From Rhizobium brockwellii (lineage in GTDB: Bacteria > Pseudomonadota > Alphaproteobacteria > Rhizobiales > Rhizobiaceae), in contig NZ_CP053439.1 of the NCBI RefSeq assembly GCF_000769405.2, forward strand, positions 2,604,001 through 2,668,000: a DNA stretch of 64,000 nt. The letters are read 5' to 3'. The notes under the pieces were generated by a model. It ran no database searches and had not been told where the DNA came from. It saw only the letters and a program-made list of their open reading frames with translations. A program made the translations under genes and the position numbers. Of the stretch, positions 1 to 51,754 are shown one piece after another (the stretch's first letter is position 1; each line of letters opens with the position of its first letter).

Positions 1-251
1 GTCAGGTCTACGATGCCCTCGAAGATCTCGCCATTGCTGATATCGATTGCCAGGATGAAGGCGAGGCGCGCCAGCCTGCCGCCCAGGCGGTGGGCGGCAA
101 GATCCGCCTTGGTCGGCTCCTCCAGCCGGGTGATCGGAAAGCGGAAGGTGGCTGCGAGTGTCTGCGTATCCTTGAGTATGGCAACGGCAGAAGCGATCTC
201 GTCGAGGCTCAGAGGATCGAGCGGATGGGTGACTGCAACAACGGCGTCCAT
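1..251 (-). CDS. Copper amine oxidase, N-terminal part (cut by window edge)
   Basis: The first 83 residues of a primary amine oxidase are visible; the rest lies left of the window. The start is the ATG at 251, preceded by AGAGGT at good spacing. The N-terminus reads HPLDPLSLDEI, then about 55 residues later FEGIVDL, the pattern of the first small domain of copper/topaquinone amine oxidases, which turn primary amines into aldehydes with release of ammonia and H2O2. The catalytic and copper-binding parts are not in view. It is last in a leftward operon after an APC permease and a small Cys-rich protein, which suggests uptake and oxidation of an amine. Confidence 0.8.
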   Translation of the reverse strand, partial: MDAVVAVTHPLDPLSLDEIASAVAILKDTQTLAATFRFPITRLEEPTKADLAAHRLGGRLARLAFILAIDISNGEIFEGIVDL

Positions 252-311
252 TGGTATACCTCTTGTTTTTGGAAGAGACGACGCACCATGGCGCGTCGCA
301 AGCTGCGGTGA

Positions 312-485
312 TCAGGATCGACCGGAGCAGATCTGCGTATCGATCATCATCTGGTCTGCATGAATGCAGAACACCGAGCAGAAGGCGTGGGCCTCGACGG
401 CAACCAGCAATGTTGCGGCGGCAAGGACCGCGACCGCAAGAACCAGAAGGCGATCGACGGGTGCAAGTTTGGCAACGGCACTCAT
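312..485 (-). CDS. Small Cys-rich membrane-anchored protein, 57 aa
   Basis: This short gene starts at ATG 485, overlapping the stop of the permease in an ATGA junction, so its translation is probably coupled to it. It stops 60 bp before the amine oxidase start. Residues 12-32 form one hydrophobic segment (signal anchor or signal peptide). The tail holds the pattern C-x3-C-x-H, then two adjacent Met and a third Cys. I do not recognise a family. Its position between a permease and a copper enzyme, and its Cys/His/Met-rich outward-facing tail, suggest metal handling or an accessory role for the oxidase; this is inference only. Confidence 0.6.
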   Translation of the reverse strand: MSAVAKLAPVDRLLVLAVAVLAAATLLVAVEAHAFCSVFCIHADQMMIDTQICSGRS

Positions 486-1933
486 TCGAAGACCTTTCCA
501 AGCGAGGCGTAGAGAGCGGGCTTGGACCTCTTGATCCGGATCGCAAACAACGCGCCAAGAATGCCCACCAGCACCATGGCATAGGGGAATGCCTTGACGA
601 TCGGGCTTTCGCTGCCGGAAAGGAGTGAAAGATTGGAACTGACCAGGACCAGCGAACCAACGAGGCCGAGGAGCGCCAGCGCCGGCGCGATCATCGTCGT
701 CCAGGCGCTATATCCGTTCGGCGTCTTGCGGAAAAACATGACGATCGCGACGGAGACCAGCACCTGCACCAGCAGGATACCGATACCTGCAAGCGCTGCC
801 ATCCACGAGAACACGACGGTGTAAGGATCGGCACCAAAAATCACGAACAGGCCAAGGATGACGGCCGCGATCAGACTTTGCAGCAGACCTGCAGCATAGG
901 GTGAGCCATGCTTGGCGTGCACCTTGCCGAGCACCTGTGCGGCCAGGCCTTCACGGCCCAGGGCGAAGAAATAGCGGTTGAGCGTATTGTGGAAGGACAG
1001 GATGCAGGCAAACAGGCTGGTGATCAGCAGCACGTTCATCACCTGGCTCGACCACGCGCCGAGCACGGAATTGGCGGCGGCGAAGTAGAAGCTTTCGAGG
1101 CCGGCTGCAGCAGTGGCCTGCACCTTGCCCGGACCGTAGAATTGCACGATTGCCCAGGTGGAGAAGGCATAGAAGAGTGTGATGAGCAGCACAGCGACAT
1201 AGGTGGCACGGGGAATGGTCTTTTCCGGATCTTCAGCTTCCTCGCCGAAAATGGCCGTAGCTTCGAACCCGATGAACGAACCGATGACGAAGACCAGCGC
1301 AGCACCAAGGCCGGGCGCGAAGACCGACGATGGCATGAAGGAGGAGAAGCTGATGCCTTCCGGTCCGCCGCCTGAAAAGACGATGGCAAGATCCAGAACC
1401 AGCAATATGGCGATTTCGGCAATCATGCAGACGCCCAGGATCGCGCCTGAGAAGGCGATGTTGCGCTGACCGCAGACCAGCACGACGACGAGTGCCGCGA
1501 AGGCGAAGGCCCACCAGGGCAGGACCAGCCCAAGCGGCCCTATGGCATTGGCCATGAAGAAACCGAACAGGCCGTAGATGGCGATCTGAACCGCGCTGTA
1601 GGTGACCAGCGCCATGAAGGCCCCGCCCACACCGGCCGGCTTGCCGATGCCATGGGTGATATAGGTGTAGAAGGCCCCTGCCCCGCCCACATGCCGGCTC
1701 ATGGCGGTGAAGCCGACCGAGAACAGCAGGTAGAGCAGGCCGGCGAGCACGAAAGCGCCGGGAACGCCGGCGCCATTGCCGAAAGCAAATGCTGCCGGCG
1801 AAGCGCCGACGACGGCGGTCAGCGGCGCAGCCGCGGCAACGACAAAGAACACCATATGGGCGAGGCCGACCGAGTTCTTGGCCAGACGACGCTCCGGCGA
1901 CGATGGTGTGGGCATGCTTGCTTCCAGTGTCAT
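482..1933 (-). CDS. APC-family amino acid/amine permease
   Basis: A 483-aa integral membrane protein of the amino acid-polyamine-organocation superfamily, with about 12 hydrophobic segments. The N-terminal segment carries the APC-type helix 1 (AAAAPLTAVVGASPAAF), and the loop FIGFEATAIFGEEAEDPEKTIPRA is the typical consensus between helices 6 and 7. AGAGGGG-like purines lie just before ATG 1933. It heads the leftward operon that continues into the small Cys-rich protein and the amine oxidase, so the likely substrate is an amine or polyamine taken up for oxidation. Substrate identity is not readable from sequence. Confidence 0.88.
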   Translation of the reverse strand: MTLEASMPTPSSPERRLAKNSVGLAHMVFFVVAAAAPLTAVVGASPAAFAFGNGAGVPGAFVLAGLLYLLFSVGFTAMSRHVGGAGAFYTYITHGIGKPAGVGGAFMALVTYSAVQIAIYGLFGFFMANAIGPLGLVLPWWAFAFAALVVVLVCGQRNIAFSGAILGVCMIAEIAILLVLDLAIVFSGGGPEGISFSSFMPSSVFAPGLGAALVFVIGSFIGFEATAIFGEEAEDPEKTIPRATYVAVLLITLFYAFSTWAIVQFYGPGKVQATAAAGLESFYFAAANSVLGAWSSQVMNVLLITSLFACILSFHNTLNRYFFALGREGLAAQVLGKVHAKHGSPYAAGLLQSLIAAVILGLFVIFGADPYTVVFSWMAALAGIGILLVQVLVSVAIVMFFRKTPNGYSAWTTMIAPALALLGLVGSLVLVSSNLSLLSGSESPIVKAFPYAMVLVGILGALFAIRIKRSKPALYASLGKVFE

Positions 1934-2054
1934 GGAGAACCCCTCTTTATTTGGCTATTGCCAAGAAGGTAAGCGCAGCGATCTGGCCCCGAAATTGCAG
2001 TTTGTGCCAATGAATCGATAATTCGCGCCACGAAGGTCACCGGAGACGCTGAAA

Positions 2055-3089
2055 ATGGCAGTTGCATCGCATTTGATCAGCCGCATGCCCGCACTTGCTT
2101 CAATTCGCGCCTCCGTCTTGATCCCGCTGGTGCAACAAATCGATAAAAGATCCGGAAAAACCGACCTTCTTCTGGCTTCGCACGGCATTCTGCGCTCGCA
2201 ACTGGAAGATCCCTACGCTGTCCTGCCCATGGCGCGTTATGTCGCGCTGTTCGAGGAGGCCGCGACGATCACAGGCGAACCGGCGCTCGGAGCCCGCATG
2301 GGCACCGGATTCAAGCCCGCCGACATCGGCCCCATCGGCATGCTCTTTGCGCTCTCGCCGACCATTCGCAGCGCTTTCGAACGGCTGTCGAAATATGTGA
2401 ACGCGGTCCAGGGCGCGACCAGTTCCGGCGTGTTCGAGGAGAATGGCAATTTTGTCTGGAGCTACCGGCTCGTCGATCCCAGCATGTGGCCGCGCCGGCA
2501 GGACAGCGAATTCACGATTGCCGCCTCCTGTCAGCTCGTCCGTTCGTGCTTTCGCCGCGGCTGGCGGCCGGTCGAAATCCAGCTCGAGCATCAGGCCCCG
2601 CGCGATGCCGGCGTGCTGGAACGCATCTATGGCGCCACCATCCTGTTTGCCCAATCCGGCAACCGGATCGTCATGAACAGGGCCGAAGCTGATCGTGTGC
2701 ACCGCCTGGAAGACAAAAGCCTGGTCGAAATCCTGGAGAGGCATATCGGCGATCTGGTCCACGAGCCGGCGGCCGGCAATGTCAAGGAAAAGGTCCAGGC
2801 CCTGATCGGCATCTATCTCGGCCGCAAGCCGGTCACGGTCGCAACCCTTGCCGCCGAACTGAAGATGTCGCCACGAAGCCTGCAGCGCCGCCTTTCGGAG
2901 GAAGGCGTATCGCTCCGCGATCTCGTTCGCCAACACCGCCAGACCCTCGCCGCCCATTATCTCGGCGACCGACATGCCGCACCGATGTCCGAGATTGCCA
3001 GTGTGCTGGGTTATGCGGACAACACGGTGCTCTGGCGCGCGCTGCGGTCGTGGGAGAAGAAGGGGAGCGACGCATCTTCGATGGGTTGA
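2055..3089 (+). CDS. AraC-family transcriptional regulator (OruR/ArgR-like)
   Basis: A 344-aa regulator with an N-terminal ligand-binding domain of the Arabinose_bd type (about residues 25-205), and a C-terminal AraC double helix-turn-helix (about 235-335) ending in the motif MSEIASVLGYAD. GGAG lies nine bases before ATG 2055. It is divergent from the amine permease, with a 121-bp shared upstream region, so the permease-amine oxidase operon is its most likely target. The related regulators OruR and ArgR control amino acid catabolism. The effector is unknown. Confidence 0.85.
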   Translation: MAVASHLISRMPALASIRASVLIPLVQQIDKRSGKTDLLLASHGILRSQLEDPYAVLPMARYVALFEEAATITGEPALGARMGTGFKPADIGPIGMLFALSPTIRSAFERLSKYVNAVQGATSSGVFEENGNFVWSYRLVDPSMWPRRQDSEFTIAASCQLVRSCFRRGWRPVEIQLEHQAPRDAGVLERIYGATILFAQSGNRIVMNRAEADRVHRLEDKSLVEILERHIGDLVHEPAAGNVKEKVQALIGIYLGRKPVTVATLAAELKMSPRSLQRRLSEEGVSLRDLVRQHRQTLAAHYLGDRHAAPMSEIASVLGYADNTVLWRALRSWEKKGSDASSMG

Positions 3090-3158
3090 ACGAAGATGCA
3101 GAAGCAAAGCAAATGCGATCGGAACGGCAACGGAAACCGTCAGATTGCTGACCGAACC

Positions 3159-3524
3159 CTACGGCCCCGCCCCAAAGAACGCCACCCGCGTAAAAATCGT
3201 GTAGTCCGCTTCCGAGACCATCAGCGCCACGAAAACCAGCACCAGCAGCGGCGGCAGCAGGATGGCGTAGACCAGCGCCAGCCGTTCCCAGGCCATGTGC
3301 ATGAAGACGGCGACGATCAGACCGGCCTTCAGCATCATGAACAGAAGGATCAGCGTCCACCTCAAGTAGCTCTGGACGCCGAGATAATCGACCATGTAGG
3401 ACGCGGCGCTGAGCACGAAGAGCAGGCCCCAGACGAAGAGATAGAGCCGGATCGGGTGCTGCTGTCCGGTGTGGGTTTGTGCATGCGTCGTTTGGCTTTG
3501 TGCGTGCGCCGTTGTTTCACTCAT
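3159..3524 (-). CDS. Cytochrome c oxidase subunit IV-like protein
   Basis: A 121-aa protein with a His/Gln-rich N-terminus and three membrane helices, matching the small subunit IV (CyoD/CoxD-like) family of bacterial haem-copper oxidases. It is the last gene of the leftward oxidase operon, directly after subunit III. The start at ATG 3524 is preferred because GAGGTG sits just upstream; a GTG two codons earlier is possible. The subunit probably aids assembly or stability, as in relatives, and carries no cofactor ligands. Confidence 0.82.
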   Translation of the reverse strand: MSETTAHAQSQTTHAQTHTGQQHPIRLYLFVWGLLFVLSAASYMVDYLGVQSYLRWTLILLFMMLKAGLIVAVFMHMAWERLALVYAILLPPLLVLVFVALMVSEADYTIFTRVAFFGAGP

Positions 3525-3549
3525 GACCACCTCACCACAGATAGAAGCC

Positions 3550-4269
3550 CTACCACAGATAAAAAAACGCGAAGATGAAGACCCAGACCAGGTCGACGAA
3601 GTGCCAGTAAAGGCCCATGATCTCGACGGCCTCGTAGCGGCCTTTCCGGCTGGTGAAGAAGCCGCGCCGTTCCACGTCGAAATCGCCCCGCCAGACCTTG
3701 CGGGCGACGATGATGAGGAAGATGACGCCGATCGTCACGTGAGTGCCGTGAAAGCCGGTGATCATGAAGAAGGTCGATCCGAACTGTGCCGCCCCCCATG
3801 GGTTCTCCCAGGGGCGCACGCGTTCGGTGATCAGCTTCGTCCATTCGAAGGCCTGCATGCCGACGAAGCAAGCGCCTAGAACCGCCGTCAGCAGCATCAG
3901 GATCGCCGTCGTCCGGCGGTCGCGGCGATAGCCGAAATTGACCGCCATCGCCATGGTGCCGCTGCTGGAGATCAGCACGAAAGTCATGATCGCAATCAGG
4001 ATCAGCGGCACGTCCTGGCCGCCGATATGCAGCGCGAAGACCTCGCTCGGATTGGGCCATGGAACGGGCGTCGACATGCGGGCGGTCATATAGGCGATCA
4101 GGAAACAGCCGAAGACGAAGGTGTCGCTGAGCAGAAAGATCCACATCATCGCCTTGCCCCAGGAGGCGGTCTTGAAGGCGCGCTGATCCGAGCTGAAATC
4201 GGCGGCAACCCCGCGCAAACCGGCCGGCCTGAGGTCTGCCCCGCCAAGTGTCTCGATAGTCTGTGCCAT
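3550..4269 (-). CDS. coxP: Haem-copper oxidase subunit III (CoxP-type)
   Basis: A 239-aa membrane protein with five evident helices. Hallmarks of subunit III are visible: GTMAMAVNFGYR, LGACFVGMQAFEWTKL, and near the C-terminus GFHGTHVTIGV and WHFVDLVWVFIF. ATG 4269 has AAGGGG upstream. The gene is 11 bp after a second subunit-III-like gene and before subunit IV. The order II, I, III-like, III matches coxMNOP described from Bradyrhizobium japonicum, and I use that name by analogy. Confidence 0.85.
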   Translation of the reverse strand: MAQTIETLGGADLRPAGLRGVAADFSSDQRAFKTASWGKAMMWIFLLSDTFVFGCFLIAYMTARMSTPVPWPNPSEVFALHIGGQDVPLILIAIMTFVLISSSGTMAMAVNFGYRRDRRTTAILMLLTAVLGACFVGMQAFEWTKLITERVRPWENPWGAAQFGSTFFMITGFHGTHVTIGVIFLIIVARKVWRGDFDVERRGFFTSRKGRYEAVEIMGLYWHFVDLVWVFIFAFFYLW

Positions 4270-4280
4270 CTGCAAACCCC

Positions 4281-4994
4281 TTAGTTCAGTAGTGTGCGGC
4301 AGAGATCGACGAAATCATTCGCCCAGCCGGCAAAGAGCGCGAAGAGCAACAGCCAGACGGCGAGCATGAAATGCGAATAGATGGCGGAAAGATCGACGCT
4401 GAGGCGCAGCCTCTCCGGCGCGACGTCGGTTGAAAATGCCCTGACCGTCGTGTGCGCGAGCACGGCAAGCCCGCCGAGGATATGCAGCCCGTGCAGGCCG
4501 GTCAGCATGTAGAAGAAGCTGTTGGCGGGATTGTCGACAAGCACGTAGCCGGCCGCCACGAGCTCCCGCCATGCCTGAACCTGTCCGACGAGAAAAGCGA
4601 CGGCAAGGACAAACGCGGCGGCAAGCGCCGGCCGCAGGTTTTCCATGCGGCCCTGCCCCGCTTCTCGTTTCGCCCATTGCAGCGAGGCACTGCTCAAGGC
4701 AAGTGCCGCGGTGTTCACCCAGAGGAGGCGCGGAACCGGCATCGCCCACCAGTCGGCGGACGCCGCACGCATGAAATAGGCGCTGACGGCAAGGCTGAAG
4801 AGCGCGCCAACGACGCCGAGAAACACGAAGAGGCCGATCTTCACTGCCGGCACCGGCGGCCGCTCAGTGCTGTGATGATCCGGCAACTGCACCGATCCGG
4901 TTTCCAGCCAGGGCTTCGAGGTCAGCCGCTGCCCGGAAAGCCACCAGATGATGATGGCGCCGATTGCAGCAAGGAAGACCAGGATGACGTTCAT
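4281..4994 (-). CDS. coxO: Second subunit III-like membrane protein (CoxO-type)
   Basis: A 237-aa protein with an N-terminal helix, four or five further helices and subunit-III motifs (GLHGLHILGGLAVL; YSHFMLAVWLLLFALF) where usual subunits have GxHGxHV and WHFVDxVW. It differs from its neighbour 3550-4269 mainly in these less conserved motifs, so it is a diverged paralogue or a cooperating partial subunit III. Its ATG overlaps the stop of subunit I (ATGA), and GGGAGG precedes it, implying coupled translation. Position corresponds to coxO of the CoxMNOP oxidase. Confidence 0.8.
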   Translation of the reverse strand: MNVILVFLAAIGAIIIWWLSGQRLTSKPWLETGSVQLPDHHSTERPPVPAVKIGLFVFLGVVGALFSLAVSAYFMRAASADWWAMPVPRLLWVNTAALALSSASLQWAKREAGQGRMENLRPALAAAFVLAVAFLVGQVQAWRELVAAGYVLVDNPANSFFYMLTGLHGLHILGGLAVLAHTTVRAFSTDVAPERLRLSVDLSAIYSHFMLAVWLLLFALFAGWANDFVDLCRTLLN

Positions 4995-6760
4995 GCGTGT
5001 ACCTCCCGGGTGACGCCGTCGCTTGACGGCACATTCTGCGGGATGAAATCCTCAGCCGCCCCCGGCACGCTGTAGTCATAGGCCCAGCGGTAGACGACCG
5101 GCAGATCCTTACCCCAGTTGCCGTGGGCCGGCGGCGTCTGCGGCGTCTGCCATTCGAGCGTCGTTGCCCGCCACGGATTGCCGCCGGCCTCCCTGCCCCG
5201 GAAAAGGCTCCAGACGAGATTGAACAGGAAGACCATCTGCCCGGCTCCGACAACAAGCGCCATGACGGTGATGAAGATGTTCAGCGTGTGGGCCGAAGGC
5301 GGAACGAAAGCCGTCTCTCCCATCTCGAAGTAACGGCGCGGCACGCCGAGCAGGCCGAGATAATGCATCGGAAAGAAGATCGCATAGGTGCCGAGGAAGG
5401 TGACCCAGAAATGGATCTGGCCGAGCACCTCGTCGAGCATACGTCCCGTCACCTTGGGATACCAGTGATAGATAGCCCCGAAGATGACGAGGATCGGCGC
5501 TACCCCCATGACCATGTGGAAATGCGCAACGACGAAAATCGTATCCGACAGCGGCACGTCGACGACGACATTGCCGAGGAACAGGCCGGTCAGGCCGCCA
5601 TTGACGAAGGTGACGATGAAGGCGAGCGCAAAGAGCATCGGCAGCGTCAGGTGGATGTCGCCGCGCCACAGCGTCAGCACCCAGTTATAGACCTTGATCG
5701 CCGTGGGCACGGCGATGATCAGCGTCGTGGTGGCGAAGAAGAAGCCGAAGGCTGGGTTCATGCCGCTGACATACATGTGGTGCGCCCAGACGACGAAGCT
5801 GAGCGCGCCGATGATGACGATCGCCCAGACCATCATGCGGTAGCCGAAGATGTTCTTGCGCGCATGCGTGCTGATCAGATCCGAAACGATGCCGAAGGCA
5901 GGCAGCGCTACGATATAGACCTCCGGATGCCCGAAGAACCAGAACAGATGTTGGAACAGGATCGGGCTACCGCCGCCGTGCTGCAACTGCGTGCCCATCT
6001 CGACGATGGCGGGCATGAAGAAGCTGGTGCCGAGCACGCGATCGAACATCATCATGACGCAGGCGACGAAGAGCGCGGGAAAGGCCAAGAGCGCCATCAC
6101 GGTGGCGGTGAAGATACCCCAGACGGTGAGCGGCATCCGCATCAGCGTCATGCCGCGCGCCCGCCCCTGCAGCACTGTTACCACATAGTTCAGCCCGCCC
6201 ATGGTGAAGCCGATGATGAAGACGATCAGCGAAGAGAGCATCAGCAGGATGCCCCAGTCCTTGCCGCCTGGTGTGCCTGATAGAACCGATTGCGGCGGAT
6301 AAAGCGTCCAACCGGCTCCCGTCGGGCCGCCGGGGGCGAAAAAGCCGGCGGCGAGGATCAGCACCGCCAGCAGATAGATCCAGTAGCTCAGCATATTCGC
6401 GTAGGGGAAGACCATGTCGCGGGCACCGACCATCAGCGGAATGAGGTAATTGCCGAAGCCGCCGAGGAAGAGCGCGGTCAAGAGATAGATCACCATGATC
6501 ATGCCGTGCATGGTGATGAACTGGTAATAGTGATCGGCATCGATGAAGGAGAGGGCGCCGGGAAAGGCGAGCTGGATCCGCATCAGCCAGGAGAGCACCA
6601 GCGCCACCAGGCCGATTGCAATGGCGGTGATCGAATATTGCACGGCGATGATCTTGGCATCCTGGCTGAACACATATTTGGTCCACCAGCTGTGCGGATG
6701 ATAGAGCTCGACATCCTCGACTTCGGCGGATGGGATGCTGCCCGATGGAATCTCGACCAT
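4991..6760 (-). CDS. coxN: Cytochrome c oxidase subunit I (CoxN-type)
   Basis: The 589-aa catalytic subunit of an aa3-type oxygen reductase with 12 or more helices. Haem and copper ligands are all present: MHGMIM (low-spin haem His), GHPEVY (CuB His, cross-linked Tyr and proton-channel Glu), WAHHMY (two CuB His) and HFHMVMG (both haem His). The D-channel entry motif with DMVFPYAN is also intact. The start at ATG 6760 (MVEIPSG) is chosen over an upstream in-frame ATG because GAGAGA precedes it. It lies between subunit II and CoxO in the leftward operon and reduces oxygen to water while pumping protons. Confidence 0.93.
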   Translation of the reverse strand: MVEIPSGSIPSAEVEDVELYHPHSWWTKYVFSQDAKIIAVQYSITAIAIGLVALVLSWLMRIQLAFPGALSFIDADHYYQFITMHGMIMVIYLLTALFLGGFGNYLIPLMVGARDMVFPYANMLSYWIYLLAVLILAAGFFAPGGPTGAGWTLYPPQSVLSGTPGGKDWGILLMLSSLIVFIIGFTMGGLNYVVTVLQGRARGMTLMRMPLTVWGIFTATVMALLAFPALFVACVMMMFDRVLGTSFFMPAIVEMGTQLQHGGGSPILFQHLFWFFGHPEVYIVALPAFGIVSDLISTHARKNIFGYRMMVWAIVIIGALSFVVWAHHMYVSGMNPAFGFFFATTTLIIAVPTAIKVYNWVLTLWRGDIHLTLPMLFALAFIVTFVNGGLTGLFLGNVVVDVPLSDTIFVVAHFHMVMGVAPILVIFGAIYHWYPKVTGRMLDEVLGQIHFWVTFLGTYAIFFPMHYLGLLGVPRRYFEMGETAFVPPSAHTLNIFITVMALVVGAGQMVFLFNLVWSLFRGREAGGNPWRATTLEWQTPQTPPAHGNWGKDLPVVYRWAYDYSVPGAAEDFIPQNVPSSDGVTREVHA

Positions 6761-6852
6761 GATCTCTCTTCCCTTTCCCCCGCCGGTTCCTTGAACCGGC
6801 AAACGGCCTCCGGCCGTCTTCCCCCGATGCGGCCTCCGGCCGCAGCGCCACG

Positions 6853-42361: not shown

Positions 42362-44017
42362 ATGCAGAAAATTCGTGCGGCCCGCTCGGCCCTCGGACAA
42401 ACAGAGGCAAAAACTTCGAGCTCGATCGACCGGCTTTTGTTCTTTGACCGCGATTTCAATCCCGTCGAGAATTTGTTGGGCAATGAGCTGCCTGCTTCTG
42501 TCAAACCAGCAGCGTCGTTTTGGGAGCATTTTCCAGAATTGGACAAATCGGCGATTACGCTCGCCCTCCGTTCCTTGGGCGACAGTGCCCAGCCTCTGCG
42601 AATATCGGGTGATCTTGGCACGCCAGCGTCGCACGGACTGACGATCTATCGGATCGGAGATCTGTTTGCCGTGGTTCGGTCCGAGGAATCCATCGACGAT
42701 GAGCGCGCAACCCTTTTGCATCTGGCCACCCACGATCCGCTCACTGGACTGCCGAACCGACGCCAGTTCAGCGAGGACCTCACTGTATTGCTACGGGAGA
42801 CCGCGGGCTCGAACGAGACCCTGTCCCTGATGCAACTCGATCTTGACGATTTCAAACCTGTTAACGACACGCTTGGGCATCCAGCCGGCGACAAGCTTCT
42901 TCAGCTCGCTGCAAGCCGCATCCAAGAGTGCCTTACCAGGGACGACAGAGCCTATCGATTGGCGGGTGACGAATTCACCGTCATATCAAGGGGCCCGGGA
43001 CATCCCGCCAAAGGCCACCAGTTAGCGGAAGCTTTGGTTGATGCATTCAAAAAGCCCTTCACGATAGATGGCATCGCGCTATTTGTCGGTGCCAGTATCG
43101 GCATATCTGCTGCTCCGCCGGACGGTACAACTCCGGAGCAGCTGATGAAGGCGTCCGACGTCGCACTCTACGCCGCGAAGAAGGACGGGCGCGGTCGCGC
43201 AAGACCGTTTGATCCGTCAATGCTTGAGTTGCTGGAACAACGCGAACTGCTGCGCCGCAGCCTTCGCATGGCCCTGGTCCAAGAACAATTCTCTGTTGAG
43301 TACCAACCCATCGCCGAGGGTGGCAGCATTGTCGGCTTCGAAGCATTGCTCAGATGGAACCACCCTCTACTTGGAAAAATCCCACCAACGGCATTTATTC
43401 CGATGGCCGAGGCCGATGGAATGATGCCGGAAATAGGTGCATGGGTTTTGGAGCAGGCATGTCGCGAGGCAATGAAGTGGCCGCAGAACTATATCGTCGC
43501 GGTCAATTTGTCCGCGGCTGAATTCTTGACAAGCGGCCTCACTGATCGGGTATCCCAAACGCTAGACTTGATCGGGTTGCCGCCCGACCGTCTAGAGCTT
43601 GAGATAACCGAAAGCGTGCTCCTTGAGCGGACCGTCAACAATATCGACACCCTGAATACTCTCAACGTGCTAGGGATACGAATCTCGCTTGATGATTTCG
43701 GGACCGAATATTCTTCGCTCAGCTATCTGAAGACATTCCCTTTCGACACGATCAAAATCGACAAATATTTTATCACCGACCTCGAAAGCGATCTGAAAGG
43801 CCAGGCAATCGTCCGCTGCGTCGTCAACCTCGCACATGACCTCGACATGCAGGTGACAGCCGAAGGGGTAGAGACGCCAGGTCAGGCGGAATGGTTGCGC
43901 AGTGTGGGCTGCGACAGACTTCAAGGCTATTTGATTAGCAGGCCGCTTCCGGTCCAGGCGATTGCCGAGTTCATCAACCGGGCGGAAACATCCGTAAGCC
44001 CTGTGCTACCACAGTGA
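42362..44017 (+). CDS. GGDEF-EAL cyclic-di-GMP enzyme with PAS-like N-terminus
   Basis: A 551-aa soluble protein. Residues 15-110 are a PAS-like sensor. The GGDEF domain (about 120-285) has LTGLPNRR and AGDEF at the active loop, compatible with cyclase activity; I see no RxxD inhibitory site at the usual position. The EAL domain (about 300-540) has EALLRW, NLSAAEF, LEITES, KID and EGVET; loop 6 reads DDFGTEYS where DDFGTGYS is usual. GGGAGGG precedes the ATG. It lies 74 bp ahead of a partner-switching gene set on the same strand and may be its output. Confidence 0.9.
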   Translation: MQKIRAARSALGQTEAKTSSSIDRLLFFDRDFNPVENLLGNELPASVKPAASFWEHFPELDKSAITLALRSLGDSAQPLRISGDLGTPASHGLTIYRIGDLFAVVRSEESIDDERATLLHLATHDPLTGLPNRRQFSEDLTVLLRETAGSNETLSLMQLDLDDFKPVNDTLGHPAGDKLLQLAASRIQECLTRDDRAYRLAGDEFTVISRGPGHPAKGHQLAEALVDAFKKPFTIDGIALFVGASIGISAAPPDGTTPEQLMKASDVALYAAKKDGRGRARPFDPSMLELLEQRELLRRSLRMALVQEQFSVEYQPIAEGGSIVGFEALLRWNHPLLGKIPPTAFIPMAEADGMMPEIGAWVLEQACREAMKWPQNYIVAVNLSAAEFLTSGLTDRVSQTLDLIGLPPDRLELEITESVLLERTVNNIDTLNTLNVLGIRISLDDFGTEYSSLSYLKTFPFDTIKIDKYFITDLESDLKGQAIVRCVVNLAHDLDMQVTAEGVETPGQAEWLRSVGCDRLQGYLISRPLPVQAIAEFINRAETSVSPVLPQ

Positions 44018-44091
44018 ACAACCGATTTTCGCCATGCCTTTAGAGATCGCAGCATCAACCTGACGCCCCAGGTAAAAGAAGGGAGGGTGTA

Positions 44092-44580
44092 TTGGAACAG
44101 GAAGCAGCTAGCTTCGATGACCATGCATTTGCGCCGATGGTATCGCTGGAACTGAACGTTGCAATGTTCAAATCCCGATGGCAGTTTTGCGACAAGATTA
44201 CGGAATATCTCTCAGACATTCTCGGCCAAGGTCATAGCGATCCCGCTCGATATTCCAATTTTCTTTCCGTCGCGACGAACGAGCTCATTGAACTTGCTTT
44301 CCGTTCGACGAGCGAGCTGGGAAGGATCAGTTTCAGTCTCTACCGGAATGCGACATTCAATCGGCTGAGAATTACGTTTCCTTGCGAGGAAGCATCTAGA
44401 GCAAGCGAACACCAGCCTGTCCCCGGCGCCGGCTCTGGATACGTGGTGATGAAGTCCGACGGGACGGTTTTGCTCAGCGATTTGGCAGCAATATTCCGCG
44501 CCACGATCCGAATTGAGAAAGACGGCAGACAAGGGATTCAAATCATTGCGGATTTCCCCTCGACCGAGGACTTCCAATGA
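44092..44580 (+). CDS. Degenerate GHKL-like ATPase/regulator, 162 aa
   Basis: A small soluble protein that looks like a diverged relative of the ATPase at 48110-48670. It keeps a similar N-box (SVATNELIELAFRS against YLSNELIENAVKF) but the later glycine-rich ATP lid is reduced to AGSGYVVM, so ATP binding may be lost. The start is TTG 44092, chosen because GGGAGGG is four bases upstream; the first ATG is at 44137. It overlaps the next gene (ATGA). A partner-switching anti-regulator role is inferred from context and this match. Confidence 0.62.
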   Translation: MEQEAASFDDHAFAPMVSLELNVAMFKSRWQFCDKITEYLSDILGQGHSDPARYSNFLSVATNELIELAFRSTSELGRISFSLYRNATFNRLRITFPCEEASRASEHQPVPGAGSGYVVMKSDGTVLLSDLAAIFRATIRIEKDGRQGIQIIADFPSTEDFQ

Positions 44581-45749
44581 GCCTGCTTCCCCTACCCTTC
44601 ACTGTTCATTTTGATCCGACAAATCAGGAGCTGTTGCTGTCTGGCAAGATACGGCCCGAAAGCGCCGCTGAAATCGCCGACGCCCTCAAGCTGGTGCAGC
44701 AAAGTTTGGAAAAATACAGCGGGGTCGTTTATGTCAATGTCAAACGTCTGACGCACATCAACATGACTGCCTTCGCGGCCCTCTCCGATATACTCGCGGC
44801 AAGTTGCCGGATCAGACCGGAACGGAAGATCATCATCATTACGTCGAGCGTGGTGGCATGGTCGACCTCTTTGTTCGAGACGCTGGCGGCAGCACAACCA
44901 AACCTGTCGGTTCAAGTCTACGATTCGGCATTTTATCCAGGCCAGAGCTTTGTCGAGGATGAGACTTTCATCCCCATTCTGCGCACCCAGACGAAAATGA
45001 CATGGAGGCACGAACGTGAACTGTTGCCTCGCCACGGCCTGCACAACGGTCTTGTCATCGCCGATATCTGTTGCGGAATTGGTGATTTCGCGGCCTTGAT
45101 ACAGAGGGAATTTAAACCGGCACGCCTTGTCGCGCTGGATCATTCCGTGCGCAGCCTCGAATATGCTCGCAGGGTCGCTGCCGACTTCGATCTCCAGGGA
45201 ATCGAGTACACCTACGGTGACGCCTCCCAAATGCTGCTGCGAGACAATCAATTTGACTTTGTGACCTGCCGACATTCGCTGCAGATCTTCAACCGTCCCG
45301 AGATGCTGCTGCGGGAGCTCTACCGCATCTGCAAGCCTGGCGGCCGTGTCTACATCACGAACGAAAAAAATTCACATTGTCTGGGCGAACCACATGCTGA
45401 AACAATAAGATGGACTTACGAGGAAGTCGCCAAACTGTTCAGGTACTTCGACATGGATGTCGAGATGGGGCCGAAAAGCCGCCATCTCCTCGCCGACGCG
45501 GGTTTCGATAACATCAAGGTCGATTCCTTTATGGTCACGAACCTGGACGGGGATCCCCAAGACTTCGCAGACATCATCGAAGCTTGGGAAAATGTCTACG
45601 CAGGTGAGATGGCCGTTCGAAGGGGCGACTCATTGGATTTCATTCGCAGGTTCCGGCAGGGTTTCAAAGATCATGTCTTTGCTGCTCTTCACCCCAAGGG
45701 CTATGCAGGCTGGCCGATCTGGGCAGCTTCCGGCCGAAAGCCGCTATGA
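44577..45749 (+). CDS. STAS-like domain fused to SAM-dependent methyltransferase
   Basis: A 390-aa fusion. Residues 1-125 resemble a STAS/anti-sigma-antagonist domain (LSGKIRPESAAEIADAL; VVYVNVKRLTHINMTAFAALSDIL); at the phosphosite the usual Ser-Ser-Gly is replaced by Asn-Met-Thr (Thr64). Residues 145-385 are a class I methyltransferase with motif I VIADICCGIGDFA (160-172), acidic LALDHS-like strand 2, and CRHSLQIFNRPEMLLRELYRICKPGGRVYITN. Start and stop both overlap neighbours by ATGA junctions. Methyl acceptor unknown. The fusion is unusual. Confidence 0.72.
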   Translation: MSLLPLPFTVHFDPTNQELLLSGKIRPESAAEIADALKLVQQSLEKYSGVVYVNVKRLTHINMTAFAALSDILAASCRIRPERKIIIITSSVVAWSTSLFETLAAAQPNLSVQVYDSAFYPGQSFVEDETFIPILRTQTKMTWRHERELLPRHGLHNGLVIADICCGIGDFAALIQREFKPARLVALDHSVRSLEYARRVAADFDLQGIEYTYGDASQMLLRDNQFDFVTCRHSLQIFNRPEMLLRELYRICKPGGRVYITNEKNSHCLGEPHAETIRWTYEEVAKLFRYFDMDVEMGPKSRHLLADAGFDNIKVDSFMVTNLDGDPQDFADIIEAWENVYAGEMAVRRGDSLDFIRRFRQGFKDHVFAALHPKGYAGWPIWAASGRKPL

Positions 45750-48106
45750 TGGACAAGAGCTCGTCGAAGAGACCGGCAAGACTAGGCTCATTTCGGGCGA
45801 AATTCATCTTGGTCGTCGGTGGAGCTGTCCTCTTTGATCTGTTGGTCAGCGGTGGACTGGCGCTTTGGAACGTTCAGAGGCTATCGCGCGACGCAACCCT
45901 GGAAGTCGGACAGGGCCTTGAAGCGGCAAGCCAGGAATATATCCGCACATATGCCGATTCCACCGCAGCCCAGGTGAGTTTGCTCCTGCGGCAAGTTCAT
46001 AACGACGTCGGCACCTTGGCAGGTGTGCTCCAGGCGCAGATCGATGATCCCGAGCGTAATTCCGACGTCGGCGCGGCAATAGCACGCACATCGCCTGGCA
46101 GCGTCAGCCTGTCCTACGATCAGAAGGCGAACTGGTCTCAGAACGCTCCGGGCTCTGCCTCGGTTGTGAGCGTCTGGGGTTACTTGCTCGGACAAGACCA
46201 TCAGCCAAGGCCCGACGTCCAGAGCGATATCCAGACGAGCGCGGTTCTAGACCTCGTTGCCCCGAGCCTGCTGCAGCGCGGTGCTTCAAAGCTGCAGATG
46301 TATTACATCGGATCGAAAGAACGACCAATCTTCAGGACAGCGCCCTATACCGACCAGGCTCAGACCTTCGACCGCCTTTATCCGGGTCATAACGAGGCCA
46401 ATTTCTGGGACTTCTTTTTTCCTGGACTTTATGAGTCCTGGCAGGGCTGGGCCAAGGATATGAAAACGCGGCCGGTTGCGGACGATATAACCCAGACAGC
46501 TCCCTATACCGATGCCATTACCGGAAAATTGATCGTCAGTTTCTTTCATCCATTGTGGACAGCCGACAGGAAGGATGTCGCCGGGACGGCTGGCGCGGAC
46601 ATTACACTCGACCAGCTCGCGCAGACTGTTGAAAACGTGAAAGTGGCCCAGTCGGGCTTTGGATTCCTCGCAATGTCCGACGGAAACGTCGTGGCGATCA
46701 ACAGCACAGGCGAAAAAACGCTCGGTTTGCGTTCTGCGAGCGATGCGAGCGGGACCGGAGTGACCGGACTGGAGCGCTCCTTGAAGGGAAGCTCCCAGCC
46801 TGCGATAGCAAAACTGGCCCTTGACCGTGAACAGGGCATCCAACGTTTGTTATTGCAGCAGGAAGGCAACCAGGTCCCGTACATCTTTATCGTGAAGAAA
46901 CTCCCCGCGACCAATCTCTGGCTCAGCGGCCCGGTTCGGCAAGAGGCGATGTCTCTTGGAGTGGTTGTGCCTGAACGGGAAATCGAGGCCTCCCTCTATG
47001 CGGCCCAGGCCAAGATTTCAGAAGCTACCAATCGGATCGTGCTCTACCAAATTCTGGCGATCTTAATGTCGCTGCTTATTGTGACGATCGCGGTATTTGC
47101 GGCTTCGAAACGAATAACGGGCGGAATCAGTGCACTTGCAGATGCCGCCAAACGGATACAAGCGAAGGATTATTCGGTCAGGGTGGCCATATCAAGCAAA
47201 GATGAGGTCGGCGAGGCTGGGGAAGCATTCAACCGGATGGCTGAGCAGATCAGCTATCACACCGAAAATCTCGAGCAGCTCGTCGAAGAGCGAACCGCTC
47301 AAATCGAAGATGCAAAGGAAGAGATTTCGACGCTTAATGCACAGCTCCAGCGAGAAAATCGACGTCTCGGCACAGAGTTGGCCGTCGCCGAGAGGATCCA
47401 GCTCATGGTTCTTCCGCTGCACCAGGAACTTGAGGAATTTCAGGCCCTTGAGATCGCAGCCTATATGAGGCCTGCAGAGGAAGTCGGCGGCGATTATTAC
47501 GACGTATTGAAGAGCGGAAATCGGTTGAAGATTGGCATCGGCGACGTCACCGGACACGGGCTCGAAAGCGGCGTGCTGATGTTGATGGTTCAGTCCGTCG
47601 CCCGCGCCCTGCAGGAAGCAGGAAACACCGATGCCGTCAAATTTCTCACAGACCTGAACAGCGCCCTGTTTAAAAATATCGTGAGAACTAAAATCGACAA
47701 GCATCTCACTCTGGCGTTTCTTGACTACGACGGAAAAGAGATGATCCTGTCGGGACAACACGAGGAAGTTGTCGTCGTGCGGGCAAACGGCGAGGTCGAG
47801 CGCATAGACACCATGGATCTGGGCATACCGATCGGGCTGGAAGCCGATATTTCTGCGTTCATCAAAACCCGTGAAATAGCGTTCGAGACGGGGGACCTCA
47901 TACTCCTGCATACGGACGGCATAACAGAAGCCGAAAATGACGCTGGAGAACTCTTTGGCATCGAACGTCTGTGCCGCGAAGCACTGCGCTTGAAGGATCA
48001 GAGCGCTGAGAAAGTCGTTGCCGGAATTATAGCGACATTAATGCTCTTCATCGGATCGCAGAAGATCTACGACGACATCACGCTTCTCGCAGTGCGACAT
48101 AGGTGA
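45746..48106 (+). CDS. Membrane PP2C/SpoIIE phosphatase with Cache-like sensor and HAMP
   Basis: A 786-aa protein. Helix 1 (about 18-42) and helix 2 (430-452) flank a large periplasmic sensor of about 385 residues, probably Cache type. A HAMP domain (452-505) and coiled coil (505-548) lead to a PP2C/SpoIIE phosphatase (549-786). Metal-binding motifs are intact: GGDYYDV, GDVTGHG, LLHTDGITEA and YDDITLLAVRHR. SiaA and RsbU-type phosphatases dephosphorylate a STAS partner; here two STAS proteins are encoded next to it. It overlaps the preceding gene by 4 bp. Confidence 0.9.
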   Translation: MMDKSSSKRPARLGSFRAKFILVVGGAVLFDLLVSGGLALWNVQRLSRDATLEVGQGLEAASQEYIRTYADSTAAQVSLLLRQVHNDVGTLAGVLQAQIDDPERNSDVGAAIARTSPGSVSLSYDQKANWSQNAPGSASVVSVWGYLLGQDHQPRPDVQSDIQTSAVLDLVAPSLLQRGASKLQMYYIGSKERPIFRTAPYTDQAQTFDRLYPGHNEANFWDFFFPGLYESWQGWAKDMKTRPVADDITQTAPYTDAITGKLIVSFFHPLWTADRKDVAGTAGADITLDQLAQTVENVKVAQSGFGFLAMSDGNVVAINSTGEKTLGLRSASDASGTGVTGLERSLKGSSQPAIAKLALDREQGIQRLLLQQEGNQVPYIFIVKKLPATNLWLSGPVRQEAMSLGVVVPEREIEASLYAAQAKISEATNRIVLYQILAILMSLLIVTIAVFAASKRITGGISALADAAKRIQAKDYSVRVAISSKDEVGEAGEAFNRMAEQISYHTENLEQLVEERTAQIEDAKEEISTLNAQLQRENRRLGTELAVAERIQLMVLPLHQELEEFQALEIAAYMRPAEEVGGDYYDVLKSGNRLKIGIGDVTGHGLESGVLMLMVQSVARALQEAGNTDAVKFLTDLNSALFKNIVRTKIDKHLTLAFLDYDGKEMILSGQHEEVVVVRANGEVERIDTMDLGIPIGLEADISAFIKTREIAFETGDLILLHTDGITEAENDAGELFGIERLCREALRLKDQSAEKVVAGIIATLMLFIGSQKIYDDITLLAVRHR

Positions 48107-48109
48107 GAC

Positions 48110-48670
48110 ATGACGCCCACGGTATATGGTATCGACTCTCTGGCAGGCATAAGCTTGGATTCGTGCACTCGCCTCACGTTAAGCGATGGACCGCTTCAGC
48201 TTGGATGGAAGCACTCCGGAATGACCTCAGACTTTATAGCGGAAGTCATGGCTCTGCCCTATTCACGGTCACGGAAAGACTATGTACAGGCCCATCATGA
48301 CATCGGATATCTCAGCAATGAGCTGATCGAAAATGCCGTTAAGTTTCGACAGCCTGGGGAGATCCTCATTGAAGCCGGCATATTCGACGGTACTTTTTTA
48401 ATCAGGGTGAAGAACACGGTCGATGGCGTGACATCCTCTCGCTTTCAGCAACTGCTGCATCGCCTTCAATCGAGGGACCCCGGGGAACTTCTTCTTGAGC
48501 AAATCGAAACCAATGCCATATCGGCAGAAAGCGGTTCGGGCTTGGGGTTGCTGACCCTTCTGAGCGATTACGATGCAAAAATGGCATGGGCATTCGAAGA
48601 GAATAATGACCAGCGTGTCATACTGACGACGACTGCAGCCGTGGCGATGCCGCCCTCCTCCAATCTGTGA
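48110..48670 (+). CDS. GHKL-type ATPase, partner-switching kinase (SiaB/slr1658-like)
   Basis: A 186-aa soluble protein with an N-box YLSNELIENAVKF (around residue 65-77) and a glycine lid SGSGLGLLTLLSDYD (about 143-157). This is the layout of small anti-sigma-factor-type serine kinases and of the SiaB/slr1658-like families. It begins 3 bp after the phosphatase stop and ends 7 bp before a STAS gene, its likely phosphorylation substrate. Confidence 0.75.
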   Translation: MTPTVYGIDSLAGISLDSCTRLTLSDGPLQLGWKHSGMTSDFIAEVMALPYSRSRKDYVQAHHDIGYLSNELIENAVKFRQPGEILIEAGIFDGTFLIRVKNTVDGVTSSRFQQLLHRLQSRDPGELLLEQIETNAISAESGSGLGLLTLLSDYDAKMAWAFEENNDQRVILTTTAAVAMPPSSNL

Positions 48671-48677
48671 GCGAAGA

Positions 48678-49016
48678 ATGGAAATCAGCGACGAAAACTT
48701 CCGCGTATGGGCTGAGAAAAACGAGGTCTATTTCGATGGCGTATTCAGGCTGGCGGGACCGGACGCCTATGCGCCGATTTACTCATTGGTATTCGGCCTG
48801 CTCCATGAGGGGCACAAACAGGTGACGTTCAACCTGACGGGTCTCGAATTCCTCAATTCCTCTGGCATAAATCTCTTGGCTAAGCTGACTATTGAAGCCA
48901 GAAAAATGGGCGACCTCCTGCTCGTTGTCAAAGGCACCAATCAATATCCTTGGCAAGCGAAGTCCCTCCCGAATCTGAAGAAGCTACACCCGCTTCTCGA
49001 TTTGCGCTTGGCGTGA
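48678..49016 (+). CDS. Stand-alone STAS protein (SiaC/slr1659-like)
   Basis: A 112-aa protein with the STAS fold: VTFNLTGLEFLNSSGINLLAKL, where Ser61 or Ser62 matches the phosphorylated Ser of SpoIIAA-type proteins. It is the last gene of the cluster. I infer that the ATPase at 48110 phosphorylates it and the phosphatase at 45746 dephosphorylates it, with the state switching binding to a further partner such as the GGDEF-EAL protein. Confidence 0.78.
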   Translation: MEISDENFRVWAEKNEVYFDGVFRLAGPDAYAPIYSLVFGLLHEGHKQVTFNLTGLEFLNSSGINLLAKLTIEARKMGDLLLVVKGTNQYPWQAKSLPNLKKLHPLLDLRLA

Positions 49017-49618: not shown

Positions 49619-49757
49619 ATTGCCTCCCTGGTAAATTCGCGTAAATGAACTGAACGAATTGCACAATTTACTGCCGGAATTAGCACAGATTTGAGCTTTC
49701 GGCCAACATGTGGGACGGTTAGTCTTTCTCCTCGAGCATATGCAGGAGGAACTCAGC

Positions 49758-50813
49758 ATGTCGTCGCCCCTTCCATCGGAAAAAGCTCTCGTACCCTTCG
49801 TCAGCGTCGAGAACATGATGCGTCTTGTCCACCACATCGGCATCGAAACCGTATTGACCGAACTTACCGACGTCATCGAGGCAGATTTCCGCCGCTGGGG
49901 ATCGTTCGACAAAACCCCGCGCGTCGCCTCTCACTCCGGCGAAGGTGTGATCGAGCTGATGCCGACCTCGGACGGCGAAATCTACAGCTTCAAATATGTG
50001 AATGGCCATCCGAAGAACATGGCGCAAGGCCTGCAGACCGTGACCGCTTTCGGCCTCCTGGCGGAAGTTTCGACCGGCTATCCGGTGCTGCTCACCGAAA
50101 TGACCTTGCTGACGGCGCTGAGAACCGCCGCAACTTCAGCCATGGCCGCGCGGCACCTCGCACCCAGGGGTGCCCGCACCATGGCCATGATCGGCAATGG
50201 CGCCCAGGCGGAATTCCAGGCGCTTGCCATGAAAGCCGTCTGCGGCATCGATCACATCCGGCTCTACGACATCGATCCGCTGGCAACGGAAAAGATGGTC
50301 CGAAACCTTGCAGGCACGGGGCTGACGGTGACCGCCTGCAACTCGTCCCAATCGGCTATCGAAAATGCCGATATCATTACGACCTGCACCGCCGACAAGC
50401 AGTACGCGACGATCCTGACCGACAACATGGTTGGCTCCGGCGTCCACATCAATGCCATCGGCGGCGACTGCCCGGGCAAGACCGAGCTGCACCGCGACAT
50501 CCTGTTGCGCGCCGACACCTTTGTCGAATATCCGCCACAGACCCGCATCGAGGGCGAGATCCAGCAGATGGATGCCGACTATCCCGTCACCGAACTCTGG
50601 CAGGTTGTAACGGGACAGGCGACCGGTCGCCGCGATGCCAGTCAAATCACCCTGTTCGACAGCGTCGGTTTCGCGATCGAGGATTTTTCCGCTCTTCGTT
50701 ATGTCCGTGACAGGCTCAGGGAGACCGGGCTTTACCAGGACCTCGATATCATCGCCGATCCGGACGATCCGCGCGACCTGTTCGGCATGTTGCAGCGAGC
50801 AAGGCAGGCATAG
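49758..50813 (+). CDS. Ornithine cyclodeaminase / mu-crystallin family enzyme
   Basis: A 351-aa NAD-dependent enzyme. The Rossmann motif is MIGNGAQAEFQALA (about residues 138-151), and the substrate-site region EMTLLTALRTAATSAMAA is conserved. Ornithine cyclodeaminase converts ornithine to proline and ammonia. ATG 49758 follows GGAGG at correct spacing. The next gene, ctlX, starts 9 bp later and would supply ornithine, so the pair forms a citrulline-to-proline route under Lrp control. Confidence 0.88.
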   Translation: MSSPLPSEKALVPFVSVENMMRLVHHIGIETVLTELTDVIEADFRRWGSFDKTPRVASHSGEGVIELMPTSDGEIYSFKYVNGHPKNMAQGLQTVTAFGLLAEVSTGYPVLLTEMTLLTALRTAATSAMAARHLAPRGARTMAMIGNGAQAEFQALAMKAVCGIDHIRLYDIDPLATEKMVRNLAGTGLTVTACNSSQSAIENADIITTCTADKQYATILTDNMVGSGVHINAIGGDCPGKTELHRDILLRADTFVEYPPQTRIEGEIQQMDADYPVTELWQVVTGQATGRRDASQITLFDSVGFAIEDFSALRYVRDRLRETGLYQDLDIIADPDDPRDLFGMLQRARQA

Positions 50814-50821
50814 GAGCACGG

Positions 50822-51754
50822 ATGATGCCAAGACACGTCACATATTCCGTCCAGGCGCCCTCTGCAGTCGTCATGGTCCGGCCGCACCACTTCACCGTGA
50901 ATACCGAAACCGCCATCGACAACCTGTTCCAGACCAGCCCGGATACGACGGAAGACCTTTCACTGGCGGCCTATGACGAAATCACCCGGGCGGCCGATGT
51001 GCTCAGAAGCCATGGCGTGAACGTGCATCTTTTCGACGACACGGGTACCGAGACACCGGATTCGGTCTTTCCCAACAACTGGTTTTCCACCCATGCCGGC
51101 GGTCACGTGGCGATCTATCCGATGAAGGCCGTCAGTCGCCGGCGCGAGCGGCGCAGCGACGTCATCGAAATGCTGAAGAGCCAGTATCGGGTGCAGGAGG
51201 TGATCGACTATTCCGGCCTCGAGCCGGACGGACTGTTTCTCGAGGGCACCGGCGCCATGGTTCTCGATCACATCGATCGGGTGGCCTATGCCGTCCGCTC
51301 CGACCGCACCGATCCGATCGCGCTGGAACGCTTCTCGACCCACTTCAACTTCGAGCCGATGGTATTCGACGCGCGGGATGGAAACGGCGTCGCCGTTTAT
51401 CACACCAATGTCCTGATGTGCATCGCCACCGACTTCGCCATGATCGGATTGGAGATGATGACCGATGCAGCAAGACGGCGGGAGGTCGTTCTAAGACTGG
51501 AGCGCTCCGGCCGCGGCGTCATCGCACTCACCAACGATCAGATCGCCTCCTTCGCCGGCAACGCTCTCGAACTCCAGGGAAAGGCGGGGCGTATCCTTGC
51601 GCTCTCGACGACGGCGTTTGCGTCCCTAAGCCGGGATCAACGCGACACGATCGAAGAAAGCGCCGAACTGGTCGCGCTTGATATCCCGACGATCGAACGC
51701 GCCGGTGGATCGGTCCGCTGCACGCTCGCAGGCGTCCATCTGACGCGACGATGA
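50822..51754 (+). CDS. ctlX: CtlX-type citrulline hydrolase (amidinotransferase fold)
   Basis: A 310-aa enzyme of the arginine deiminase/dimethylargininase superfamily. The pentein motifs are PNNWFSTH (about 80-87), a Glu in FLEGTGAMVL, HTN in VYHTNVLM (about 196-203) and the nucleophile Cys300 in SVRCTLAGVHL. CtlX-type enzymes hydrolyse citrulline to ornithine, CO2 and ammonia. It lies directly downstream of ornithine cyclodeaminase in a two-gene operon. Confidence 0.85.
   Translation: MMPRHVTYSVQAPSAVVMVRPHHFTVNTETAIDNLFQTSPDTTEDLSLAAYDEITRAADVLRSHGVNVHLFDDTGTETPDSVFPNNWFSTHAGGHVAIYPMKAVSRRRERRSDVIEMLKSQYRVQEVIDYSGLEPDGLFLEGTGAMVLDHIDRVAYAVRSDRTDPIALERFSTHFNFEPMVFDARDGNGVAVYHTNVLMCIATDFAMIGLEMMTDAARRREVVLRLERSGRGVIALTNDQIASFAGNALELQGKAGRILALSTTAFASLSRDQRDTIEESAELVALDIPTIERAGGSVRCTLAGVHLTRR

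Follow-up and report, generated by a model that had tools for sequence, protein, structure and literature searches.

A probable bgrRSTUWV operon in Rhizobium, with a methyltransferase carried by a degenerate kinase-STAS pair

The window analysed here is a stretch of 64,000 nucleotides from Rhizobium brockwellii (contig NZ_CP053439.1, positions 2,604,001 to 2,668,000), and the system in question is a locus of six consecutive genes within it, referred to as g1 to g6 (Table 1). The locus is most likely the Rhizobium orthologue of S. meliloti bgrRSTUWV, with g4, g5 and g6 acting as a partner switch on g1, and with g2 and the STAS domain of g3 serving as a non-switching adaptor pair. In the proposed mechanism, the membrane sensor phosphatase g4 (BgrU) and the GHKL kinase g5 (BgrW) would set the phosphorylation of g6 (BgrV), with S61 as the predicted site. 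Control of the diguanylate cyclase g1 (BgrR) by BgrV has been published for S. meliloti and is predicted here from orthology and conserved residues. The g2 protein and the STAS domain of g3 would descend from a second kinase-STAS pair in which the kinase Asn was lost, as was the canonical acceptor in most sequences, and would now tie an intact methyltransferase to the complex.

Identity and conservation of the six-gene locus

All six S. meliloti pSymB open reading frames (ORFs) matched the profiles of the window genes in the same order. Bases 32-6800 of a 6800-base stretch from S. medicae matched S. meliloti 1021 pSymB 458823-465603 at 87.0%. The bgr operon of S. meliloti is the subject of Baena et al. 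2019 (doi 10.1111/1462-2920.14624), and the pSymB stretch probably corresponds to it. The bgrR tag is SMb20447; the pSymB record is unannotated, and the tags did not occur in the literature searched. The operon comprises six genes arranged RSTUWV, and BgrV in its unphosphorylated state is proposed to inhibit BgrR.

In S. meliloti, the BgrSTUWV partner switch acts on the cyclase BgrR via the STAS protein BgrV (PMC8457831), and the phosphorylation of BgrV, set by the phosphatase/kinase couple BgrU/BgrW, is linked to mixed-linkage glucan synthesis (PMC7647112). Baena 2019 is also cited in PMC11619594 and PMC13430161, and Baena is named in the reference lists only of PMC8546604 and PMC7666153. The term "bgr" does not occur in an R. 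etli glucan paper (PMC9495663). The operon is already known, and the window cluster corresponds gene for gene to a pSymB locus that agrees with it. The original prediction had held that a two-branch switch in which one phosphatase serves two STAS proteins would be new; novelty is not supported, since an operon made of these parts has been published for S. meliloti (PMC8457831, PMC7647112).

The locus is conserved as a unit. Scanning named genomes with the g3 alignment confirmed 212 stretches, and the 80 best were examined; gene order and strand were the same in 80 of 80, with 79 loci complete and one (L048) stopping at a contig end inside g4. The top named g3 matches, at 96%, were in R. leguminosarum and R. 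johnstonii. A chance cluster or a strain-specific island is ruled out by this synteny, and the refuting condition set by the original prediction, a lack of joint conservation of the neighbouring genes, fails on the same 80 loci. The presence of the operon is nevertheless patchy: full-length g3 was found in 46 of 60 same-genus genomes (own genome included) and was absent from all 40 genomes sampled in other families of the order, while 11 of 13 genomes from other genera of the family, a separate sample, were without an slr1658 match. Among plasmid records matching the S. medicae six-gene stretch, 112 of 312 carried at least 80% of it in one place. A further tally of 99/100 was set aside and is unused here, as it counts generic methyltransferases.

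Evidence for the cyclase comes from g1, which gave Pfam matches to both GGDEF and EAL. The motif reads AGDEF in 85 of 85 sequences, the eight EAL catalytic residues are likewise kept in all 85, and the I-site Arg is missing in 82 of 85. In EAL loop 6, the Gly following DFGT is replaced in 85/85 BgrR sequences (g1 residue 449). Replacement of this Gly is expected to weaken EAL phosphodiesterase activity, which agrees with a cyclase role. A functioning cyclase with an altered first GGDEF residue is described in PMC6637768, citing Baena 2019. The predicted link of the partner switch to cyclic di-GMP (c-di-GMP) is supported.

Table 1 Genes of the probable bgr operon in the window
Gene	Coordinates	Strand	Domains and predicted role
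g1, bgrR orthologue	42362-44017	+	N-terminal region, GGDEF (AGDEF), EAL (Pfam); diguanylate cyclase
g2, bgrS orthologue	44092-44580	+ (TTG start)	GHKL switch-kinase-type pseudokinase
g3, bgrT orthologue	44577-45749	+	STAS (about residues 8-115) fused to class I S-adenosylmethionine (SAM) methyltransferase
g4, bgrU orthologue	45746-48106	+	Cache-like sensor, HAMP, SpoIIE/PP2C phosphatase
g5, bgrW orthologue	48110-48670	+	GHKL switch kinase, slr1658 superfamily
g6, bgrV orthologue	48678-49016	+	slr1659-superfamily STAS protein; predicted phosphosite S61

The predicted switch and the degenerate pair

Residues were tallied over 14 five-gene loci (a form without g1, described below) and up to 86 six-gene loci, the window itself being excluded. 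One locus was double-counted in these tallies (L131 and L023 are the same), L048 is without g5 and g6, and one five-gene g3 failed to align, hence 13 five-gene g3 sequences.

The residues needed for switching appear intact in g4, g5 and g6. Domain scans of g4 matched HAMP and SpoIIE/PP2C, with a Cache match under the cut-off, and Asp 583, 600, 724 and 777 were kept in 99 of 99 aligned sequences. The g5 protein belongs to the slr1658 superfamily (NF047703, 166 bits against a cut-off of 100) and has its N-box Glu, Asn and Lys intact in 99/99. The g6 protein belongs to the slr1659 superfamily (NF047705, 120.5 bits against a cut-off of 100) and its NSSG motif is likewise kept in 99/99. The two adjoining genes both pass their cut-offs and so make up an slr1658/slr1659 superfamily pair. 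Taking the phosphoserine of STAS partners to be the first residue past Asp/Asn, as in SpoIIAA, the acceptor in g6 would be S61. Neither the g5 profile nor g6 alone yielded a useful match among the sequences of solved structures. Judged by these residues, the live switch is predicted to be g4/g5/g6.

A different picture emerged for g2, which had no Pfam match and only a weak NF047703 match (E 4.8e-4) far under the cut-off. Profile comparison links the protein to g5 (hhalign E 6.5e-6), and SpoIIAB/RsbW-type chains were matched by the g2 model, which places it in the GHKL switch-kinase fold. The N-box Asn of GHKL kinases serves Mg-ATP. In g2 the Glu is kept and the Asn is present in 0 of 100 sequences, the position being occupied by L (42), M (25), T (13), V (11), I (8) or F (1). 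Loss of this ATP-box residue throughout rules out g2 as a live second kinase, as far as sequence can tell.

The g3 protein is a methyltransferase with an N-terminal STAS domain, which matched NF047705 below the cut-off (E 1.2e-8; 35 bits, cut-off 100) and matched g6 in profile comparison (E 4.8e-8). The fold matches span the methyltransferase part alone, so the STAS assignment of g3 rests on profiles. The class I SAM methyltransferase fold and the SAM motifs are present, and each of seven methyltransferase residues examined is conserved in no fewer than 119 of the 120 sequences of a close and of a distant set of relatives (best 120 of 908 and best 120 of 945, with overlap between the sets retained). 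The canonical acceptor position, aligned by profile to S61 of g6, is M63 in g3. Ser is found there in 8 of 87 sequences, in 23/120 close and in 2/120 distant relatives; Thr was never found there in either set of 120. Two genomes (G036 and G048) each carry two full-length STAS-methyltransferase copies.

Since g2 is related by profile to g5 and the g3 STAS domain to g6, the kinase-STAS doubling is real in origin. The original prediction of doubled kinase and STAS parts holds as to duplicate origin. A second live kinase-STAS branch is not supported, as the N-box Asn of g2 is missing and the g3 STAS domain is mostly without Ser at the acceptor, although the neighbouring T64 leaves some room for it. 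Together, g2 and g3 read as a degenerate pair that bears an intact methyltransferase. No treatment of BgrS, BgrT or a switch-controlled methyltransferase was found in the literature covered, which is no proof of absence, subscription papers being outside its scope.

Position 64 of g3, BgsA and the cyclase-free form

Several observations weigh against the reading of the locus as a bgr operon with a single switched branch. The name bgr is assigned from gene content and order, and each of two g5 sequences (L128 and L074) has one changed G2-box Gly. The remaining points concern T64 of g3 and the published glucan output.

Thr occupies position 64 of g3 in 119/120 close relatives and in only 3/120 distant ones, and in 81 of 86 six-gene loci as opposed to none of the 13 aligned five-gene loci. 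The contrast between the two forms of the locus suggests some role for T64 in the six-gene clade, and the residue may be an alternative acceptor gained together with the cyclase. It would then be part of a two-branch switch, in which the one live kinase and the phosphatase act on both BgrV S61 and BgrT T64 and a single signal reaches the cyclase and the methyltransferase. The strongest point for such a switch is that Thr64 tracks the six-gene form, and its near fixity in close relatives, while the neighbouring position 63 varies freely, also speaks for it. However, in the alignment T64 falls opposite the second Ser of NSSG and not the canonical acceptor. Distant relatives have I, V or L there in 117/120, five of the 86 six-gene loci have A, M or L, a Thr-to-Val swap is like-for-like in shape, and the partner kinase g2 appears dead by sequence. 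The two-branch switch is, on balance, unlikely, and a non-switching g2/g3 pair is preferred. Positions 63-64 (window 44763-44768) also display a swap of constraint: distant relatives fix Asn63 (118/120) and vary position 64 (I/V/L), whereas close relatives vary position 63 and fix Thr64.

The published output does not carry over to the window genome. The RTGD and HLHY motifs of BgsA are described in PMC5567048. These motifs identified the S. meliloti BgsA ORF (pSymB, L135:23636-25645), some 53 kb ahead of the six-gene locus, a spacing that fits the locus tag numbers. Close to bgsA, pSymB also carries a further GGDEF gene (L135:20979-22064, minus strand). No BgsA orthologue was found in the window's own genome, where the best match to S. 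meliloti BgsA had 34% identity and 232 bits, compared with at least 1235 bits for near full-length orthologues elsewhere. Among the 60 genus genomes, bgsA was present in 28 (26 near full length and two split), always beside bgr. Three of those near full length (G001, G013 and G018) were reported with a stop inside the match. Eighteen of the 46 bgr-positive genomes, own genome included, were without bgsA (one of the 18, G003, is 82% complete) and 14 genomes had neither (Fisher p 2.9e-5, relatedness uncorrected). R. johnstonii 3841 (L004, G039) likewise has bgr and no BgsA orthologue. Because BgsA is absent, the operon here must serve an output other than mixed-linkage glucan, and by the sequence of this genome the published glucan output does not apply to it.

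A five-gene form of the locus lacks the cyclase gene. In a class sample of 289 genomes, slr1658 was above the cut-off in three, namely the window's own genome and two genomes of genus g118 (family f116), both of which had a weak second slr1658 match 4.1 kb upstream. Within f116, g3 was found in 7 of 28 genomes, comprising all seven of g118 and none of the 21 others, and all seven g118 loci read carry g2 to g6 and no g1. In an order sample, g3 was found in 15 of 347 genomes; the loci read were five-gene in families f41 (four) and f23 (three) and six-gene in f266 (two), and four of the six loci of the own family were read, all six-gene (window, L128, L129 and L131). The five-gene form thus totals 14 loci in three families. 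In 11 of these 14 (f116 7/7, f23 3/3, f41 1/4), a separate, divergently encoded PP2C-like gene lies upstream of g2, for example at L096:5616-6593 (minus strand) and also in L097, L143-L147 and L153-L156; its profile matches are weak (22-32 bits).

The seven g118 genomes (92-97% complete) had no GGDEF match above the cut-off (two fragments, best E 0.02) and no EAL match; HD-GYP and PilZ were not searched. The own genome, for comparison, has 42 GGDEF matches, and all seven five-gene genomes of f41 and f23 have GGDEF proteins elsewhere. As no GGDEF or EAL match was found in the seven g118 genomes, c-di-GMP is very unlikely to be the output of the switch there.

A tree covering 25 loci and built on g4, g5 and g6 united the 13 six-gene loci in one clade with a bootstrap of 100. 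This clade fits a single recruitment of the cyclase, which may be a later add-on. Support for the root among the five-gene loci was low (61), and the outgroup, L130, has a long branch and spans roughly half the columns, which leaves room for repeated loss of the cyclase. At the outgroup locus (L130:4485-9140, from G433 of the same phylum) stand consecutive genes for a GGDEF protein, an slr1658 kinase, an slr1659 STAS protein, a putative phosphate-binding protein and a PP2C phosphatase, a Sia-like set with no methyltransferase.

The switch may first have acted on the methyltransferase, with the cyclase joining later as a second output, a possibility that falls well short of an even chance. The cyclase-free loci in three families, the seven g118 genomes without GGDEF above cut-off or EAL, the single six-gene clade and the nearly invariant methyltransferase residues are all consistent with it. 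It is weakened by the root support and outgroup noted above, by the GGDEF gene of the outgroup locus itself, and by the fact that the five-gene output could be another target elsewhere in the genome. In a combined form, equally doubtful, the methyltransferase would be the ancestral effector, tethered by a pseudokinase and a non-phosphorylatable STAS domain; the cyclase would have been recruited once, in a Rhizobiaceae-like clade, and in genomes without GGDEF proteins methylation alone would be controlled.

The targets of partner switches are, to our knowledge, sigma factors, cyclases or stress-response proteins, and control of a methyltransferase, if true, would make a new class of output. With the supposed new switch being a known one, the question moves to bgrS and bgrT, and chiefly to the role of the built-in methyltransferase; the five-gene loci in genomes without GGDEF matches offer a natural setting for testing the methyltransferase apart from the cyclase. 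What is new here is the five-gene cyclase-free form, the six-gene clade and the absence of BgsA from the window genome. As a discovery claim the locus is ordinary, and the methyltransferase arm and the cyclase-free form are of moderate interest.

Locus layout and comparison with known systems

The junctions of the operon are 4-base ATGA overlaps at g2/g3 and g3/g4 and gaps of 74 (g1-g2), 3 (g4-g5) and 7 bases (g5-g6). The G+C content of the six genes is 0.545, compared with 0.614 for the remainder of the window. Operon G+C was below that of its own flanks in 67 of 79 loci, by 2.3 points on average and by 4.6 to 6.0 in the six loci listed first, and low G+C is therefore partly a trait of the operon. 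ORFs, Pfam/NCBIfam scans and base composition bear out the six same-strand genes, domains, junctions and reduced G+C described in the original prediction. Downstream, at 49710-51754, are consecutive genes for ornithine cyclodeaminase (NF005762) and citrulline hydrolase CtlX (NF046062). Neighbours of these two kinds, and LysR, accompany the operon in some near relatives only.

Compared with S. meliloti bgrRSTUWV, the window locus is alike in its six genes, their order and strand, and in the roles of cyclase, sensor phosphatase, kinase and STAS protein. The S. meliloti operon lies on pSymB, whereas the window operon lies on contig C1 (at least 4.6 Mb), and the S. meliloti system controls glucan synthesis by BgsA, which the window genome lacks.

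Anti-sigma switches resemble the locus in part. The g2 protein shares the fold of the SpoIIAB/RsbW anti-sigma kinases and differs from them in its missing ATP-box Asn, and the g6 profile weakly matched RsfB (E 0.013) and SpoIIAA (E 0.49). We know of no sigma factor for the bgr system; no search aimed at one was made, the domain scan having covered three flanking genes. A switch of the RsbU-RsbV-RsbW kind, with its sigma factor encoded elsewhere, would account for these matches of g2 and g6 to anti-sigma and anti-anti-sigma chains. It is highly improbable, given the cyclase gene within the operon in 80/80 examined loci and the naming of the cyclase as the S. meliloti target in citing papers (PMC8457831, PMC7647112).

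The original prediction had pointed out that the set holds every part of the SiaABCD switch; the kinase and STAS proteins belong to the slr1658/slr1659 superfamilies. The set of roles is the same and the SiaA model matched g4 with an E of 6.4e-33, yet all four Sia models were under their cut-offs (SiaA 114 of 700 bits, SiaB 23 of 85, SiaD 99 of 290, SiaC 14.8 of 24.5, the last matching g3 only). Membership in this family is ruled out on that count and we give it almost no credence. Relative to P. aeruginosa SiaABCD, the window locus adds a methyltransferase and a pseudokinase, and g1 also has an EAL domain. Within the slr1658/slr1659 superfamily, g5 and g6 are typical members, whereas g2 and the g3 STAS domain are divergent and far under the cut-offs, and one of the two window STAS domains is fused to a methyltransferase.

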